Assembly (NCBI RefSeq): GCF_030531065.1
Contig: NZ_JAUNOQ010000001.1
Coordinates: forward strand, 186,001 to 250,000
Direction of reading: 5' to 3'
DNA length: 64,000 nt
From: Phascolarctobacterium sp.
GTDB taxonomy: Bacteria > Bacillota > Negativicutes > Acidaminococcales > Acidaminococcaceae
Part shown: positions 5,709 to 35,114 of the stretch, in pieces
How positions within the stretch are numbered: the stretch's first letter is position 1
Layout of the letters: each line of letters begins with the position of its first letter
Translations under genes and position numbers: made by a program
Notes under the pieces: model-generated
The model's database searches: none
What the model saw: only the letters and a program-made list of their open reading frames with translations
What the model was told of the DNA's origin: nothing

Positions 5709-5798
5709 GGAGAGATGACCGAGTGGTTGAAGGTGCACGCCTGGAAAGCGTGTGTACGGGATACCGTACCGAGGGTTCGAATCCCTCTCTCTCCGCCA
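5709..5798 (+). tRNA. tRNA-Ser (anticodon GGA), CCA encoded
   Basis: A 90-nt class II tRNA. The acceptor arm GGAGAGA (5709-5715) pairs with TCTCTCC (5788-5794), followed by discriminator G and encoded CCA. The anticodon loop CTGGAAA is closed by CACGC/GCGTG, giving anticodon GGA. A long variable arm (around TACGGGATACCGTA) and the T arm GAGGG-TTCGAAT-CCCTC are present, as expected of serine tRNAs. Confidence 0.97.
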
Positions 5799-5840: not shown

Positions 5841-5956
5841 GGGACCGTAAATTTGGGTCCTGCGCAATGGGAGCCTGTGAACCAGGTCAGGTCCGGAAGG
5901 AAGCAGCCTTAAGCGGATACTTTCATGTGCCGCGGGGGCGCCCGGATTTGCGGCCC
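5841..5956 (+). ncRNA. ffs: Bacterial small signal recognition particle RNA (4.5S type)
   Basis: The universal SRP helix 8 core CAGGTCCGGAAGGAAGCAGC is present around 5888-5907. The long rod closes with GGGACCGTAAATTTGGGT at 5841-5858 pairing with the segment at 5939-5956 through Watson-Crick and G-U pairs. The RNA is about 115 nt and lacks an Alu domain, since the tRNA gene lies directly upstream. The RNA binds Ffh and directs membrane protein targeting. In B. subtilis the scr gene also follows a tRNA-Ser, but the dnaX gene expected next is not found here. Confidence 0.94.
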
Positions 5957-6274: not shown

Positions 6275-6302
6275 TTGCCGGGGGGGACAAGTGTGGTATA
6301 AT
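6275..6302 (+). promoter_or_regulatory. Extended -10 promoter of porin 1
   Basis: TTGCCG (6275-6280), a 16-bp spacer and TATAAT (6297-6302) preceded by TGG, i.e. an extended -10. The predicted start near 6309 gives a leader of about 300 nt. Confidence 0.72.
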
Positions 6303-6308
6303 GTATCC

Positions 6309-6611
6309 AAAGCAAGGTGCGGACGTGAGAGATTGCTCTGTCAGGGGTGGCAGAGAGTTAAAAAAGTCCGCTGCGAGTTATACTCTTTCCTTGCTGTTAA
6401 ATTTGGCAGGATTGGAAGCCTACCAATCCTGCTAGATTGATTATAAAGCGCCATCTGCTTCCACCCCAACCTCACCCCGTTTATAAATTGTCTGCAAGGC
6501 AGAACTCAACCCGTAAAGCATGAGGAAACAAGGCAACTCATATCGAGCGGCGAGACGAAGCTTTAAGGACATTTTATAAAAATAAAATAATCCTTAGAGG
6601 AGGAAAACAAA
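6309..6611 (+). promoter_or_regulatory. Long structured 5' leader of porin 1
   Basis: From the 5' end: AGCAAGG/CCTTGCT (6311-6317 with 6389-6395) encloses GCGGAC/GTCCGC (6319-6324 with 6366-6371). Within these lies CAGGGGTGG (6342-6350). Next comes a perfect 10-bp hairpin (6406-6415 with 6423-6432) without a T tract, then CCACCCC (6461-6467), which can pair with GGGGTGG. Last is TGAGGAAACAAGGCAACTCA (6521-6540), which recurs in the leader of porin 2. AGAGGAGG precedes the ATG. The function is unknown; candidates are an mRNA stability element, a small-RNA target or an undescribed cis-regulatory RNA. Confidence 0.55.
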
Positions 6612-7838
6612 ATGAAAAAATCCTTAGTACTCGCAATGGCTATGGCATTGGGCGTAACCGCATCCGCTTACGCAGCCAATCCGTTCTCCGACGTTCCGGC
6701 CGGCCACTGGGCATATGACAGCGTAAACAAGCTGGCTGCAGCAGGCGTAATCGACGGCTACGGCGACGCTACCTTCGGCGGCGACAAGCTGATGACCCGT
6801 TATGAAATGGCGCAAATCGTAGCCAAAGCTATGGCTAAAGGCGCTAACGTAGATAAGCTGGCCGCTGAATTTGCTGACGAGCTGGATACTCTGGGCGTTC
6901 GCGTTGCTAACCTGGAAAAGAAAGCTGACAACGTAAAGATTGCTGGTCAGGTTCGTTTGAGCTATCGTGATTCTGATCAAGGCAAGCACAACGGTCGTCT
7001 GCGTACCCGTTTGTTTGTAAAAGGCGCTGTCAACGATGACTGGACTTATACCGCTCGTATTGAGAACAACCAATACTTTGACGAGTCCGATGAAACCAAA
7101 CATAGCAAAGGCAACAATCCGAATGCTGGCGACGAAGATACGAAGCTCAACTGGGCTTTCGTTTCCGGTCGTGTAGGTGGCATTATGGTTGACGCTGGCC
7201 GTCAGGATATTAAAATGCATACTGGTACTGTAGTCGATGAAACTTTCGATGCTGCTAAGATTTCCTACGGCAAAGACGTTAAATTGACTGGCGTTGTTGC
7301 TAAAGCGGCTGGCAGTGGTTCTTGGGATAATGGCACTATGGAAGAAGGCGACAGAATGTATGTTGCCGACGTAACCGCTAAATTGGGCGTTGTTGACGGC
7401 TATGTAACCTATTACAAGGCTGATACTGCTAACGACGATGAAATTATAGTAGTTGGCGCTTCCGCTAAGATTGCTAAAGATTTGAAATTAACCGCAGAAT
7501 ATTTGAACGGCGACGCTCAAAGCGGTAAGGACGACAATGGCTATATGGTAGGCTTGGCTTATGGCGGCGCTAAAGCTGCAAAAGCTGGTAGCTGGGGCTT
7601 GTATGCTAACTACTATGACCAACCGATTGCAACCATGCTGGAGCATACTGTAGACGGCTATGCTTATATGCCTACTGGTTTCATGACAACTGGCGACGGT
7701 TTCCAAGGTTATGAAATTGGCGCTAACTACACCGCTGCAAAGAACATTGTATTGGGCGTAAAATACTATGATTTGGAAGCACGCGAAGGCAGCGCTGACG
7801 ACCAAACCATCTGGACTGAAGTAGTATTCAGCTTCTAA
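6612..7838 (+). CDS. SLH-domain outer-membrane porin (porin 1)
   Basis: A 408-residue precursor. Residues 1-21 form a signal peptide ending in SAYA. An SLH domain follows (residues 24-75, containing DVPAGHWAYDSVNKLAAAGV and TRYEMAQIVAKAM), then a short coiled coil (ELDTLGVRVANLEKKADN). The rest, from about residue 113, is an alternating beta-strand barrel ending in VVFSF with a terminal Phe. This is the Negativicutes pattern in which the SLH domain tethers the outer-membrane protein to polyamine-modified peptidoglycan while the barrel forms a pore. Its first 110 residues nearly match the second porin on the minus strand. It is followed by a strong terminator. Confidence 0.95.
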   Translation: MKKSLVLAMAMALGVTASAYAANPFSDVPAGHWAYDSVNKLAAAGVIDGYGDATFGGDKLMTRYEMAQIVAKAMAKGANVDKLAAEFADELDTLGVRVANLEKKADNVKIAGQVRLSYRDSDQGKHNGRLRTRLFVKGAVNDDWTYTARIENNQYFDESDETKHSKGNNPNAGDEDTKLNWAFVSGRVGGIMVDAGRQDIKMHTGTVVDETFDAAKISYGKDVKLTGVVAKAAGSGSWDNGTMEEGDRMYVADVTAKLGVVDGYVTYYKADTANDDEIIVVGASAKIAKDLKLTAEYLNGDAQSGKDDNGYMVGLAYGGAKAAKAGSWGLYANYYDQPIATMLEHTVDGYAYMPTGFMTTGDGFQGYEIGANYTAAKNIVLGVKYYDLEAREGSADDQTIWTEVVFSF

Positions 7839-29862: not shown

Positions 29863-31252
29863 GGTTCTCTAACAAATCTTGGGGTTTAGGTCCAAAACCT
29901 AGATTCCAGGATTTGTTCTTTTTTGTAAAAAAATAAAGCATAAAAGCGCAAAATCCTGTAAAATATAAGGTGACTAAACTAATATAATACGGAAGGAGTC
30001 TGCGCTCATATTATGCTTCAAGACAATTATAACCAAAATAATCCTCTTTTTAAAGGGGTTATTCTAAAAAGTTTTCAAGAAATTCAAGACGAAAACAACA
30101 AAAGCCATTTCGAGGCTTGTATTGATATGCCCGTAAAGGCTCATCGTTGCCCTCACTGTGGCTGTATTACGAACAAAATTAAAGATTACAGGACTCAAAT
30201 ATTTAAGGATGCCGACATATTTGGGAATACGGTCTTTATCCATCTAAAAAAGCGCCGTTATTTTTGTAGCCATTGTCATAAAAGCTTTACGGAAGAAAAC
30301 CCTTTAATTCAAAGGTATAGGCATTTCAGCAGCCGGTTTTATACGCTTGTATATAAAGAATTTCAAAGCGTCCAGTCCTTTACGGCTATAGCTGCAAGAT
30401 TTAAAGTGTCAGCTACCAGTATAGCAAGATGGTTTGCGCATATTGCTTATCCTCATCCAAAGCTACCGGAATACTTCAGCATAGACGAGTTTAAAGGGAA
30501 TGCTGGAGGTGAAAAATTTCAGTGTAATATTTCAGATCCCGTTAAACGAAAAGTTATAGATATCCTGCCATCACGGGACACAACTGACCTTTCAGAGCAT
30601 TTCTTACAGTATACGAAAGAAGACCGAAATAATGTTAAGGGAATTGTTATGGATTTGAGTAAGATATTCAGGTCTATAGCGCATACTTTGTTCCCTAATG
30701 CTATAATAATAGCAGACAAGTTCCACGTTATGAGGATAGTAACCAATAGCCTGGAAAAGGTCAGACGGCGCATACAGAAAGAGTTTCGCGCTGTTAAGCG
30801 TAAATGGTTCAAGAAGAGTAAGAAAATACTGCTCAAGAAAGAAGCCAAGCTTAATGAAGAAGAAAGAGCTACCCTGAACCGTATGCTTAACTCCTCGAAA
30901 GAGCTGGAACATGCGTACATTTTAAAGGAGAATTTTTACAAAGTAATAGAATCCAAGACAAAAGAAGAAGCCATGCAAGCTTTGGCTACATGGCTGAGTT
31001 ATGTCGACTACCTGAAAGTACCGGAATTTGAGCATTGTATTCAGACTTTTACCGACTGGCGACAAGAAATCGCTAATATGGCTGGTAGCAACCTTTCCAA
31101 TGGCTTTATCGAAGGTACCAACAATAAGATAAAGGTCTTGAAACGCATTAGCTACGGAGTCCAGAATTTCGAAAGGTTCAGGAATCGAATTCTTTACTTA
31201 TGTTCATAAAAAAACGCAACATGGACAAACCAAAAGTGTTAGACTTAGATCC
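29863..31252 (+). mobile_element. ISL3-like insertion sequence (approximate borders)
   Basis: The element is about 1.39 kb around one transposase gene. The proposed left end begins GGTTCTCTAACAAATCTTGG at 29863. The reverse complement of the right end begins GGATCTAAGTCTAACACTTT at 31252. The two ends share interrupted matches (CTAACA, TTGG, GTTT, GTCCA), so they are imperfect inverted repeats. The 8-base flanks (GCAAAAAC and TTTCTATG) do not match, so no target duplication is seen and borders may be off by some bases. Confidence 0.6.
30013..31209 (+). CDS. ISL3-family transposase
   Basis: 398 residues, full length. The N-terminal zinc-finger-like part contains HRCPHCGC and RRYFCSHCHKSF, followed by a helix-turn-helix region (QSFTAIAARFKVSATSIARW). 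The DDE catalytic domain includes FSIDEFKG, VKGIVMDLSKIFRS, IIADKFHVMRIV and the C-terminal LSNGFIEGTNNKIKVLKRIS carrying the Glu. No frameshift is visible, so the enzyme may be active. GGAAGGAG lies 18 bases before the ATG. Confidence 0.95.
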   Translation: MLQDNYNQNNPLFKGVILKSFQEIQDENNKSHFEACIDMPVKAHRCPHCGCITNKIKDYRTQIFKDADIFGNTVFIHLKKRRYFCSHCHKSFTEENPLIQRYRHFSSRFYTLVYKEFQSVQSFTAIAARFKVSATSIARWFAHIAYPHPKLPEYFSIDEFKGNAGGEKFQCNISDPVKRKVIDILPSRDTTDLSEHFLQYTKEDRNNVKGIVMDLSKIFRSIAHTLFPNAIIIADKFHVMRIVTNSLEKVRRRIQKEFRAVKRKWFKKSKKILLKKEAKLNEEERATLNRMLNSSKELEHAYILKENFYKVIESKTKEEAMQALATWLSYVDYLKVPEFEHCIQTFTDWRQEIANMAGSNLSNGFIEGTNNKIKVLKRISYGVQNFERFRNRILYLCS

Positions 31253-32537: not shown

Positions 32538-33755
32538 TTAGAAAGTGAAGTTCAGTTGGCCGTAAATGGTTTGGTTATCCTTGCTGCCTTCTTTACCTTC
32601 CAGATCGTACCATTTAACTGCAGCAACGATGTTCTTAGCTACGGTGTAATCAACGCCGATGCCATAGCCTTCGAAACCTTCGGAATCCAGACCGAAATCA
32701 TAATCAGCTTCGAAAGTAGGAGCTACATAAGTGCCGACTGCCATATCGTAGTACTTAGCCCATACGCCCCAGCTGTTGACTTGAGAAGCTTTAGCGCCCC
32801 GATATTTTAAGCCGACCATAAAACCGTCGTCGTCGCAATCGTTCTTGTCGTAATCGGACATCAGATAGGTGCCGTCCAATTTCAAATCCTTGACAACCGG
32901 TACGACAAAGCCTACGCCCCACAGTTCGTTATCATCTTCTAAGCTACCTTGGTCTTCAAATTTGTAGTAGCCGACCTTAGCGTCCCATACGCCGATCTTA
33001 GCGCCTAATTGCGCGTAGTACATATCTTCGCAGTTATTTTCCCATTTATCGGTTTTACTGGTATCGGAGCCTTTGCCGTAGCCGACGGTCAGGTTGATAT
33101 CCTTGCCGTAGGACAGTTGTACGCCGTCCATACGGTCATCGTAAATCATAGCGTCGTAGAAGTCGGAGAAATGGTAACGACCTGCCTGCACCTTAACGCC
33201 GCCGATTCTACCGTTTACGTAAGCGCGTTGGAATTTAGTATCTTCGTCGCCGTTGTCGTTGTGAAGATCTTGGATATTTTCGATCATACCAGTGTAGGTC
33301 CAGTTGTCGTTTACTTGGCCGTTAATCCAGATACGGGAACGCAGTTTGGTTGCATCTTTATCCATACTTTTACCGGTGTCTACTTCGTTATCGTAGCCCC
33401 AATAACGCAGACGGAACTCACCGGTAATTTTTACGTTGTCGGCTTTCTTTTCCAAATTAGCTACGCGTACGCCCAAGGTGTCCAGCTCGTCGGCAAATTC
33501 TGCAGCCAGCTTGTCTACGTTGGCGCCTTTGGCCATTGCCTTAGCAACGATTTGCGCCATTTCATAACGGGTCATCAGCTTGTCGCCGCCGAAAGCGCCG
33601 TCGGCATAGCCGTCGATAACGCCTGCTGCAGCCAGCTTGTTAACGCTGTCGTAAGCCCAGTGGCCGGCCGGAACGTCGGAGAACGGATTTGCAGCGTAAG
33701 CGGATGCGGTTACGCCCAATGCCATTGCCATAGCCAGTACTAAAGATTTTTTCAT
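32538..33755 (-). CDS. SLH-domain outer-membrane porin (porin 2)
   Basis: 405 residues. The signal peptide, SLH domain and coiled coil (residues 1-110) match porin 1 almost residue for residue, while many codons differ synonymously. After KADNVKI the barrel diverges (GEFRLRYWGYDN versus GQVRLSYRDSDQ) and ends in QLNFTF with a terminal Phe. The pattern suggests strong selection on the wall-anchoring part and freedom in the pore. AGGGAGG precedes the ATG. It has its own long leader with elements shared with porin 1. Confidence 0.95.
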   Translation of the reverse strand: MKKSLVLAMAMALGVTASAYAANPFSDVPAGHWAYDSVNKLAAAGVIDGYADGAFGGDKLMTRYEMAQIVAKAMAKGANVDKLAAEFADELDTLGVRVANLEKKADNVKITGEFRLRYWGYDNEVDTGKSMDKDATKLRSRIWINGQVNDNWTYTGMIENIQDLHNDNGDEDTKFQRAYVNGRIGGVKVQAGRYHFSDFYDAMIYDDRMDGVQLSYGKDINLTVGYGKGSDTSKTDKWENNCEDMYYAQLGAKIGVWDAKVGYYKFEDQGSLEDDNELWGVGFVVPVVKDLKLDGTYLMSDYDKNDCDDDGFMVGLKYRGAKASQVNSWGVWAKYYDMAVGTYVAPTFEADYDFGLDSEGFEGYGIGVDYTVAKNIVAAVKWYDLEGKEGSKDNQTIYGQLNFTF

Positions 33756-34010
33756 TTTGTTTTCCTCCCTTAGGAAATATATTTTATAAGCGCCTTAGGG
33801 AAGCTGGGCTTGCCGAAAGCTTGTCTGAGTTGCCTTGTTTCCTCATCCTGTTTCGCCAAACTTTCGCCGCCGCGCGGGCGTTTATAACGCTACACGGCGA
33901 AGGGTTTGTTAGGACGTTCAAACCCTTCGATAATAAAAAGGCTACTCGCCGCTAAAGTTTATAAACCCCACCCCTGAGGTAAATCCTTCGCTTTACCGCC
34001 TCTTTACTAT
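33756..34010 (-). promoter_or_regulatory. Long structured 5' leader of porin 2
   Basis: A minus-strand leader of about 255 nt. In order it contains a GGTAAA/TTTACC hairpin directly before CAGGGGTGG (plus-strand 33968-33976), a perfect 10-bp hairpin CGAAGGGTTT/AAACCCTTCG (33920-33929 with 33898-33907), and TATAAACGCC. TGAGGAAACAAGGCAACTCA follows (33826-33845), identical to the porin 1 leader, and then the ribosome binding site. The order of elements matches porin 1 although most of the sequence differs. The rest of the gap to 34178 holds only the promoter. Confidence 0.55.
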
Positions 34011-34016
34011 GTCTCC

Positions 34017-34045
34017 ATTATAATTTATTGCTAAGTTTTTAACAA
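34017..34045 (-). promoter_or_regulatory. Promoter of porin 2
   Basis: Minus strand: TTGTTA (34040-34045), 17 bp, TATAAT (34017-34022), with a start expected near 34010. Confidence 0.8.
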
Positions 34046-34178: not shown

Positions 34179-35114
34179 TTATGGTTGCTCGGCGTCGGGC
34201 TTGCCTGTCAGTACGTCGCGATAAGCGTCGCCAAACTTTTGCATGATCGGCTTTAATAATTTCATATCGGCATTTTTATTCCAAAAGGCGTAATATTCAA
34301 AGCGAATTGGCGCGCCGTTATTGTAAAGCTGCGTCAAACGCGTAAATTTGCCGAGAAAGTTGCAAATACCGCCGTTGCTGGTGATGGGCATAAAGCCTTC
34401 GTTATTGATAATCATGGCTAAGGCCGAAGGGATGTCCTTGGCTATTAAAAAGCTGCCGTTAAAATTAAGAATCCGGCGGTAAAATAATTTTTCCTGCTCT
34501 AACGAATCTCTATCGGCGATTAAGATGCAGGGCATATTTTTGATAGAAGTTACTTCAATAAAGTTAGTACAAGAGGGGGGGACGAGAGTATTTTGTAAAG
34601 AGATGGCGACAAGACAGTTTACCGATTCAATGTGATGGCAGCAAAATTTTTTTAGCTCGTCTTCGCTGCGTAGATCGTTAATAGCTATGTCCAGCTCTCC
34701 TGCCAGCAATTTGTTCATCAGCGCGTCGTGTTCTCCGTAAGTGATATTGATGGCAATATCCTGATTTTCTGGCAGTAAGGTTTTTAAAACGTGGGACATA
34801 ATCGCTACATTGTAATTACTGCGGCAGCCAATCCTTAGCCTTGACTCTTGCCGGCGCTCCAGCTGATATAAATTGTTTTTAAGGTTTTCTGTTTCTTGGA
34901 CGATGGCTTTAGCCTTCTGATAAAAAAATTCTCCAGCTGGCGTAAGGGCGAAACGGCGGTTGCTGCGCAAAATGAGCTCCGTGCCCAGTTCGTCCTCCAA
35001 GGCTTTGACCTGCTGGGAAATTGCGGATTGCGAAATAAAACATTGCTCCGCAGCTTCGCTAAAGCTTTTACAGTCGGCCACAGCTAAAAAGTATTTCATT
35101 TGGCGTAATAACAT
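34179..35114 (-). CDS. LysR-family transcriptional regulator
   Basis: 311 residues. The N-terminal winged helix-turn-helix is complete: LRQMKYFLAVADCKSFSEAA, QCFISQSAISQQVKALEDEL, then LTPAGEFFYQKAKAIVQE and a linker helix. From about residue 90 a type II periplasmic-binding-like effector domain follows (LRIGCRSNYNVAIMSHVLKT). The ligand is unknown. No divergent target gene abuts it; the tRNA-Gly gene is upstream on the same strand and porin 2 is downstream. Confidence 0.94.
   Translation of the reverse strand: MLLRQMKYFLAVADCKSFSEAAEQCFISQSAISQQVKALEDELGTELILRSNRRFALTPAGEFFYQKAKAIVQETENLKNNLYQLERRQESRLRIGCRSNYNVAIMSHVLKTLLPENQDIAINITYGEHDALMNKLLAGELDIAINDLRSEDELKKFCCHHIESVNCLVAISLQNTLVPPSCTNFIEVTSIKNMPCILIADRDSLEQEKLFYRRILNFNGSFLIAKDIPSALAMIINNEGFMPITSNGGICNFLGKFTRLTQLYNNGAPIRFEYYAFWNKNADMKLLKPIMQKFGDAYRDVLTGKPDAEQP

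Follow-up and report, generated by a model that had tools for sequence, protein, structure and literature searches.

Conserved RNA domains in the leaders of OmpM-type porin genes of Phascolarctobacterium and their relatives in other bacteria

The leaders of two distant porin genes in a 64,000-nucleotide stretch of Phascolarctobacterium DNA (the window) contain two conserved RNA domains, a 5′ domain (Domain I) and a 3′ hairpin, and both domains show compensatory change. The observation is real and strong: the proposal in the initial annotation that a selected, cis-acting RNA structure lies on porin mRNAs is strongly supported by many matches at SLH-porin genes with covarying stems. The 3′ hairpin ranges over several phyla, being common in Negativicutes and rarer in other Bacillota and two further phyla, and it probably controls the amount of porin that is made. 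Domain I is found in at least three Acidaminococcaceae genera and appears to be new and undescribed. A porin-linked RNA module that several phyla have in common, and whose loop is also that of cyanobacterial Yfr2, where it is conserved but unexplained, could serve as bait for a common regulator; if vertically inherited, the module would also be relevant to the question of an ancestral outer membrane in Firmicutes.

Architecture of the two leaders

The window belongs to a 2.37-Mb Phascolarctobacterium genome (Acidaminococcaceae, Negativicutes). Porins 1 and 2 each have an SLH domain at the N-terminus and are similar over nearly their full length to the solved chains 8bys and 8bym, annotated as 'S-layer homology domain-containing protein'. 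In diderm Firmicutes, OmpM-type porins serve in outer membrane tethering and nutrient uptake; the literature searched held no study of their leaders or regulation. A predicted sigma-70-like promoter precedes each gene, with TATAAT boxes at 6297-6302 (+) and 34022-34017 (-), and thereby gives leaders of about 300 nt (porin 1) and 255 nt (porin 2), the lengths originally proposed. A tRNA gene (5709-5795) and a small SRP RNA gene (5851-5950) lie close upstream of porin 1. Porin 2 has an ISL3-family transposase gene downstream (30013-31209) and a LysR-type regulator gene upstream on its own strand (34179-35114).

Table 1. Features of the two porin loci (window coordinates).
Feature	Position	Strand	Detail
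Porin 1	6612..7838	+	OmpM type: SLH domain plus barrel
Predicted promoter, porin 1	6275..6302	+	TTGCCG - 16 nt - TATAAT; consensus match only
Domain I, leader 1	6309..6395	+	
Domain I P1, leader 1	6311-6317/6389-6395	+	AGCAAGG/CCTTGCT
Domain I P2, leader 1	6319-6324/6366-6371	+	GCGGAC/GTCCGC
Domain I P3 hairpin, leader 1	loop at 6341-6350	+	loop TCAGGGGTGG
Domain I GCGAGT strand, leader 1	6373-6378	+	
Perfect hairpin between domains, leader 1	6406..6432	+	10 bp, GCAGGATTGG/CCAATCCTGC
Arm A, leader 1	6480..6492	+	TTTATAAATTGTC
3′ hairpin, leader 1 (20-mer)	6521..6540	+	ATGAG/CTCAT stem; 12-nt loop GAAACAAGGCAA at 6525-6536
Competing hairpin, leader 1	6561..6603	+	arm B with 6591-6599; predicted fold
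Porin 2	32538..33755	-	OmpM type: SLH domain plus barrel
Predicted promoter, porin 2	34017..34045	-	TTGTTA - 17 nt - TATAAT; consensus match only
Domain I, leader 2	33931..34010	-	CAGGGGTGG at 33976-33968
Perfect hairpin between domains, leader 2	33898..33929	-	11 bp, CGAAGGGTTTG/CAAACCCTTCG
3′ hairpin, leader 2	33826..33845	-	20-mer identical to leader 1
RBS AGGGAGG, porin 2	33764..33770	-	predicted paired

All elements of the shared architecture that the initial annotation had described were located in both leaders (Table 1), including the identical 20-mer and the perfect hairpins with different arms. The elements are thus present as described, but they belong to two separate domains, the 5′ domain occurring in few genera and the 3′ domain in several phyla. 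Between the domains, TATAAAGCGCC at 6442-6452 of leader 1 has TATAAACGCC as its counterpart in leader 2. Arm A can pair at 12 of 13 positions with arm B (6567-6580), closing a long stem around the 3′ hairpin of leader 1, and the RBS of porin 1 (GAGGAGG, 6597-6603) lies partly inside the predicted competing hairpin.

Domain I is laid out as P1, P2, a AAGGAUUU-like internal loop and P3, which is capped by the loop UCAGGGGUGG; a strand reading GCGAGUA separates P2 from P1. The stretch CAGGGGTGG, at 6342-6350 (+) in leader 1, recurs at a similar position in relatives (leaders L041, L046, L049 and L069). A covariance model built from three leaders (R2) added two instances from genus g2, each ahead of an SLH-porin gene that also has the 3′ hairpin; R2 matches in genus g13, none of them at a recognised porin leader, are probably due to chance. 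Among seven aligned Domain I sequences, 20 of 23 pairs show two-sided changes, 89% of cells are paired (43-57% for slid pairs) and covariation is 0.75 (0.07-0.17 for slid pairs), figures that are inflated because the alignment was fitted to R2. Compensatory change in P2 is nevertheless visible by eye, as GCGGAC/GUCCGC, GAUGAAGC/GCUUCAUC and GUAUAGC/GCUAUAC. No Rfam 15 family matched Domain I at its gathering score.

A long-range pairing of GGGGTGG with CCACCCC had been pointed out in leader 1. Among the leaders compared, CCACCCC occurs without CAGGGGTGG in L006 and L018, and CAGGGGTGG without CCACCCC in L003, L041, L046 and L049; since each half occurs alone, we rejected this pairing as a general feature. 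In L006, L018 and L024, a C-rich stretch (CCACCCC or CACCCC) stands just before the TATNAAATTTCT stretch, again without CAGGGGTGG, and may have a separate role.

The 3′ hairpin in its own and other genomes

In its general form, the 3′ hairpin presents a 12-nt loop, GAAACNNGGNNA, on 3 bp, often followed by a bulge and a long variable stem; the window copies carry the loop GAAACAAGGCAA with GAG/CUC as closing pairs. The 20-mer or near variants of it occur in eight copies in the Phascolarctobacterium genome, all on OmpM porin leaders and one truncated by a contig end; 8 of the 10 OmpM porins are preceded by the hairpin. Together with its recurrence in other classes and phyla, this places the likeness of the two leaders beyond chance. 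The two OmpM porins lacking the hairpin end at 110606 and 107812 on the minus strand of contig C21. Their leaders (L144 and L145) are of a different, short kind common to both, ATTTCTGTTAAGAA ... CTTAATAGT ... GATTGCGAT, which may be a second leader type.

The 16-mer core was present in 28 of 61 genomes (the own genome and relatives), with a nearly silent reversed control. Scanning 84,980 species for the exact 19-mer returned 37 stretches, every one upstream of an SLH-porin or similar exported protein, or of its first codons at a contig end; at two Limnochordales loci the exported protein begins about 190-215 nt downstream. Acidaminococcaceae predominate among these stretches, which also come from Anaerovibrio, Selenomonadaceae and Veillonellales MAGs, Abditibacteriota, Riflebacteria and Limnochordales. 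Some of the sources are MAGs whose labels may be wrong: a MAG labelled Acholeplasmataceae has an Acidaminococcaceae-type porin.

The covariance-model search of Negativicutes that the initial annotation had suggested yielded many further matches upstream of SLH-porin genes, with covarying stems. In Negativicutes, the model (R1), built on 55 dereplicated sequences and 37 gap-free columns, had matches in 177 of 380 genomes at E 0.01, including 108 of 234 good genomes and 54 of 102 genera. In the phylum to which the Abditibacteriota genome belongs, 4 of 151 genomes matched; the corresponding counts were 4 of 40 for the phylum of a Riflebacteria genome and 12 of 73 for the class that includes a Limnochordales genome. 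At E 0.001, nine of 299 Bacillota genomes matched, namely the window's genome and eight from outside Negativicutes (one previously known), and all eight of the latter matches precede SLH-porins or exported proteins without SLH. Inspection of the downstream DNA at 71 R1 loci, about 20 of them lower-scoring, revealed an SLH-porin or another signal-peptide protein next in nearly all; a few run into contig ends, and a single locus (L181) clearly has neither kind of protein downstream. Three of the non-SLH downstream proteins received no identification from Pfam or NCBIfam, so 'porin-like' for these three refers to signal peptide, length and sequence style, features from which we infer a barrel; an AlphaFold prediction for a non-SLH downstream protein from a two-sequence alignment was uninformative (pLDDT 27.5). 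The hairpin was not found at SLH-type porins of three cyanobacterial plasmids, at SLH genes of three Deinococcota plasmids or at two porin-like genes on Negativicutes plasmids.

Structural conservation was assessed in the flanks, which hold the only structural information because the core had been picked by sequence. Flank pairs were formed in 80.5% of cells, compared with 34-49% for slid pairs, and flank covariation was 0.28, compared with 0.07-0.12. The arms beyond the core stay complementary without sequence conservation (mean z -3.7 in Acidaminococcaceae and -2.6 in others), although the leader sequences are related and p-values are therefore not independent. In predicted folds of 99 leaders, the loop was unpaired (median 0.99) and the stem stable (median 0.97). 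The end of the loop lies 33-103 nt upstream of the start codon.

Relation to described RNAs

The suggestion that the leader RNA is undescribed appears to hold for Domain I; the 3′ hairpin has counterparts in the literature. It is probably the SLH motif, a likeness of description rather than of compared consensus sequences. That motif was reported as a riboswitch candidate (Stav et al. 2019, PMC6429828); of its 80 examples, which come from Synergistaceae, Clostridia and Negativicutes, about 60% lie upstream of SLH-domain genes, and c-di-GMP was suggested as the ligand. As in that description of a cis-regulatory RNA, our hairpin lies upstream of SLH-domain genes in Negativicutes and other Bacillota; here, in contrast, several hundred sites are found, nearly all at porin-like genes, and further phyla are included. 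The passages on the motif in Stav et al. draw no link to Yfr2, and the motif is absent from the main texts of two similar surveys published later.

When Rfam was searched permissively, the hairpin matched Cyano-1 (RF01701), whose consensus, uugUGUGUGAGGAGu...gggGUGGAAACAAGGAAACACUccc, we infer to be that of the cyanobacterial sRNA Yfr2. Six matches were found in the whole Phascolarctobacterium genome, all at hairpin-bearing porin leaders and far below the family cut-off; hairpins scored 15-26 bits (best 25.7, own genome 24.3) against a gathering score of 41. Voss et al. (2009, PMC2662882) described Yfr2 as having a central loop of 12 nt, a bulge at position -4 and a 5′ end that is both conserved and unpaired. 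Reverse-complementing the primers of that study gives TTGTGTGTGAGGAG as the 5′ end of Yfr2a and the loops GAAACATGGCAA in Yfr2a and GAAACAAGGAAA in Yfr2b and c, and both loop variants are also present among the leaders (L011 and L033). Compared by sequence, the 3′ hairpin closely resembles the Yfr2 hairpin: a 12-nt loop (GAAACAAGGAAA or GAAACAUGGCAA) sits on a 3-bp stem, often a bulge, and a long variable stem, and the loop GAAACNNGGNAA is present in porin leaders. The single-nucleotide bulge three pairs below the loop fits one leader group; in other leaders an A faces two bases, and neither window copy is bulged. Yfr2 is a separate small transcript, listed as not cis-regulatory under the name Cyano-1 (Weinberg et al. 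2010, PMC2864571), whereas the porin hairpin lies in cis on the mRNA. Yfr2 also has a 5′ UGUGUGAGGAG stretch complementary to Yfr1, and this unpaired stretch was unmatched in the Cyano-1 alignments of three leaders. Yfr2 binds Yfr1, which targets porin mRNAs (PMC6778093, PMC6974561). Either common descent or convergence on one binding site would account for the likeness. The work on the 3′ hairpin extends and connects elements known in the literature under two unconnected names.

A search of plasmids with the Yfr2 consensus gave only chance-level matches of 19-20 nt. All three SLH-type porins on cyanobacterial plasmids (L103, L104 and L105) have GTGTGAG close before the start codon, which by eye would fit pairing with Yfr1.

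Possible modes of action

Our best explanation, held tentatively and at a little under even odds, is that the leaders act in cis, that a trans-acting factor reads the hairpin and that competition between folds sets porin translation. The 3′ hairpin with its loop GAAACNNGGNNA would be a module recognised by a conserved trans-acting factor, most likely an RNA-binding protein. With the factor bound, the long stem would be favoured over another fold in which the RBS is hidden; the balance of stem and RBS-hiding fold would then set translation. Yfr2, bearing the same module, could compete for this factor in cyanobacteria, and the larger Domain I would add a further input in some Acidaminococcaceae. 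A trans-acting factor, probably a protein, is favoured by a loop that is invariant between variable arms, by its placement ahead of the RBS and by its presence on an sRNA as well. The explanation draws on the near-exclusive association with porin-like genes over several phyla, on stem covariation with arm complementarity in the absence of sequence conservation, and on the same loop and similar stem in the Cyano-1 consensus and Yfr2. The factor, the switch and the functional link to Yfr2 are putative. A wider reading, which we consider rather doubtful, joins one ancient RNA recognition module of outer-membrane biogenesis with an independent new structured RNA, Domain I. On the porin mRNAs of diderm Firmicutes and of two other phyla the module would act in cis, on cyanobacterial Yfr2 in trans, and one conserved factor would read it in both settings; Domain I would be stacked on it in Acidaminococcaceae.

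Predicted folds bear on the switch differently inside and outside the window's family. Outside Acidaminococcaceae, predicted RBS accessibility was 0.37 with the 5′ arm, 0.21 without it and 0.24 when shuffled (21 leaders up and 5 down, n = 44 related leaders); in L033, CCUUCUUAGG can pair with the RBS region CCUAAGGAGG, and its CCUU likewise belongs to the long stem's 3′ strand. In Acidaminococcaceae, a different competing hairpin is predicted to cover part of the RBS, and the 5′ arm had no effect on predicted accessibility (0.34 with and 0.37 without); an RBS-accessibility switch is therefore not demonstrated for the window's own genes.

The arrangement would work like CsrA/RsmA leaders with decoy sRNAs, in which a loop with GG is found on both a leader and an abundant sRNA. 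CsrA binding needs GGA (ANGGA in a loop). Most of the hairpin loops read GGC and lack ANGGA, and no csrA gene was found in the Phascolarctobacterium genome by a search that was positive in E. coli and B. subtilis, so CsrA/RsmA binding is unlikely and was rejected.

The main rival to a trans-acting factor, above all for Domain I, is a small-molecule riboswitch in which a metabolite or ion, bound by the loop or by Domain I, governs translation. The SLH motif was published as such a candidate on SLH genes (Stav et al. 2019, PMC6429828), the complexity of Domain I, with its conserved unpaired stretches, is riboswitch-like, and folds are predicted to compete at the RBS. The widespread part, however, is just one hairpin, about 25 nt long, a ligand switch is harder to reconcile with a loop shared with the abundant sRNA Yfr2, and the associated genes suggest no metabolite; overall, we regard a riboswitch as rather unlikely.

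Porins are classic sRNA targets, and the exposed, invariant loop could be kissed by a trans-acting sRNA; Yfr1 indeed acts on cyanobacterial porins (PMC6778093, PMC6974561). Against this stands the lack, on both strands of the Phascolarctobacterium genome, of an exact complement of the full 20-mer: with up to three mismatches allowed, all matches were sense copies at leaders except one with three mismatches. A loop invariant over phyla would moreover demand an equally conserved sRNA, of which we know none, and we consider this alternative improbable.

Marginally less probable still is an unregulated mRNA stabiliser or ribosome-standby element. Porins are abundant proteins and long stable stems lie near their RBS, but such an element would not need an invariant loop, and the hairpin is missing from 2 of the 10 porin leaders. 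Recent, functionless duplication of leader DNA, to which the near-identity of L001, L002 and L004 (porin N-termini 94-100% identical) might point, is very improbable, being already contradicted by the compensatory changes in both domains, by leaders 1 and 2 having mostly different bases with pairing kept, and by the recurrence of the hairpin beside diverged genes in other phyla. Contig C19 ends within leader copy L004 (C19:252089-252228) and a porin begins at base 60 of contig C8; the assembly probably breaks in the leader repeat, and this leader copy and porin may be one gene.
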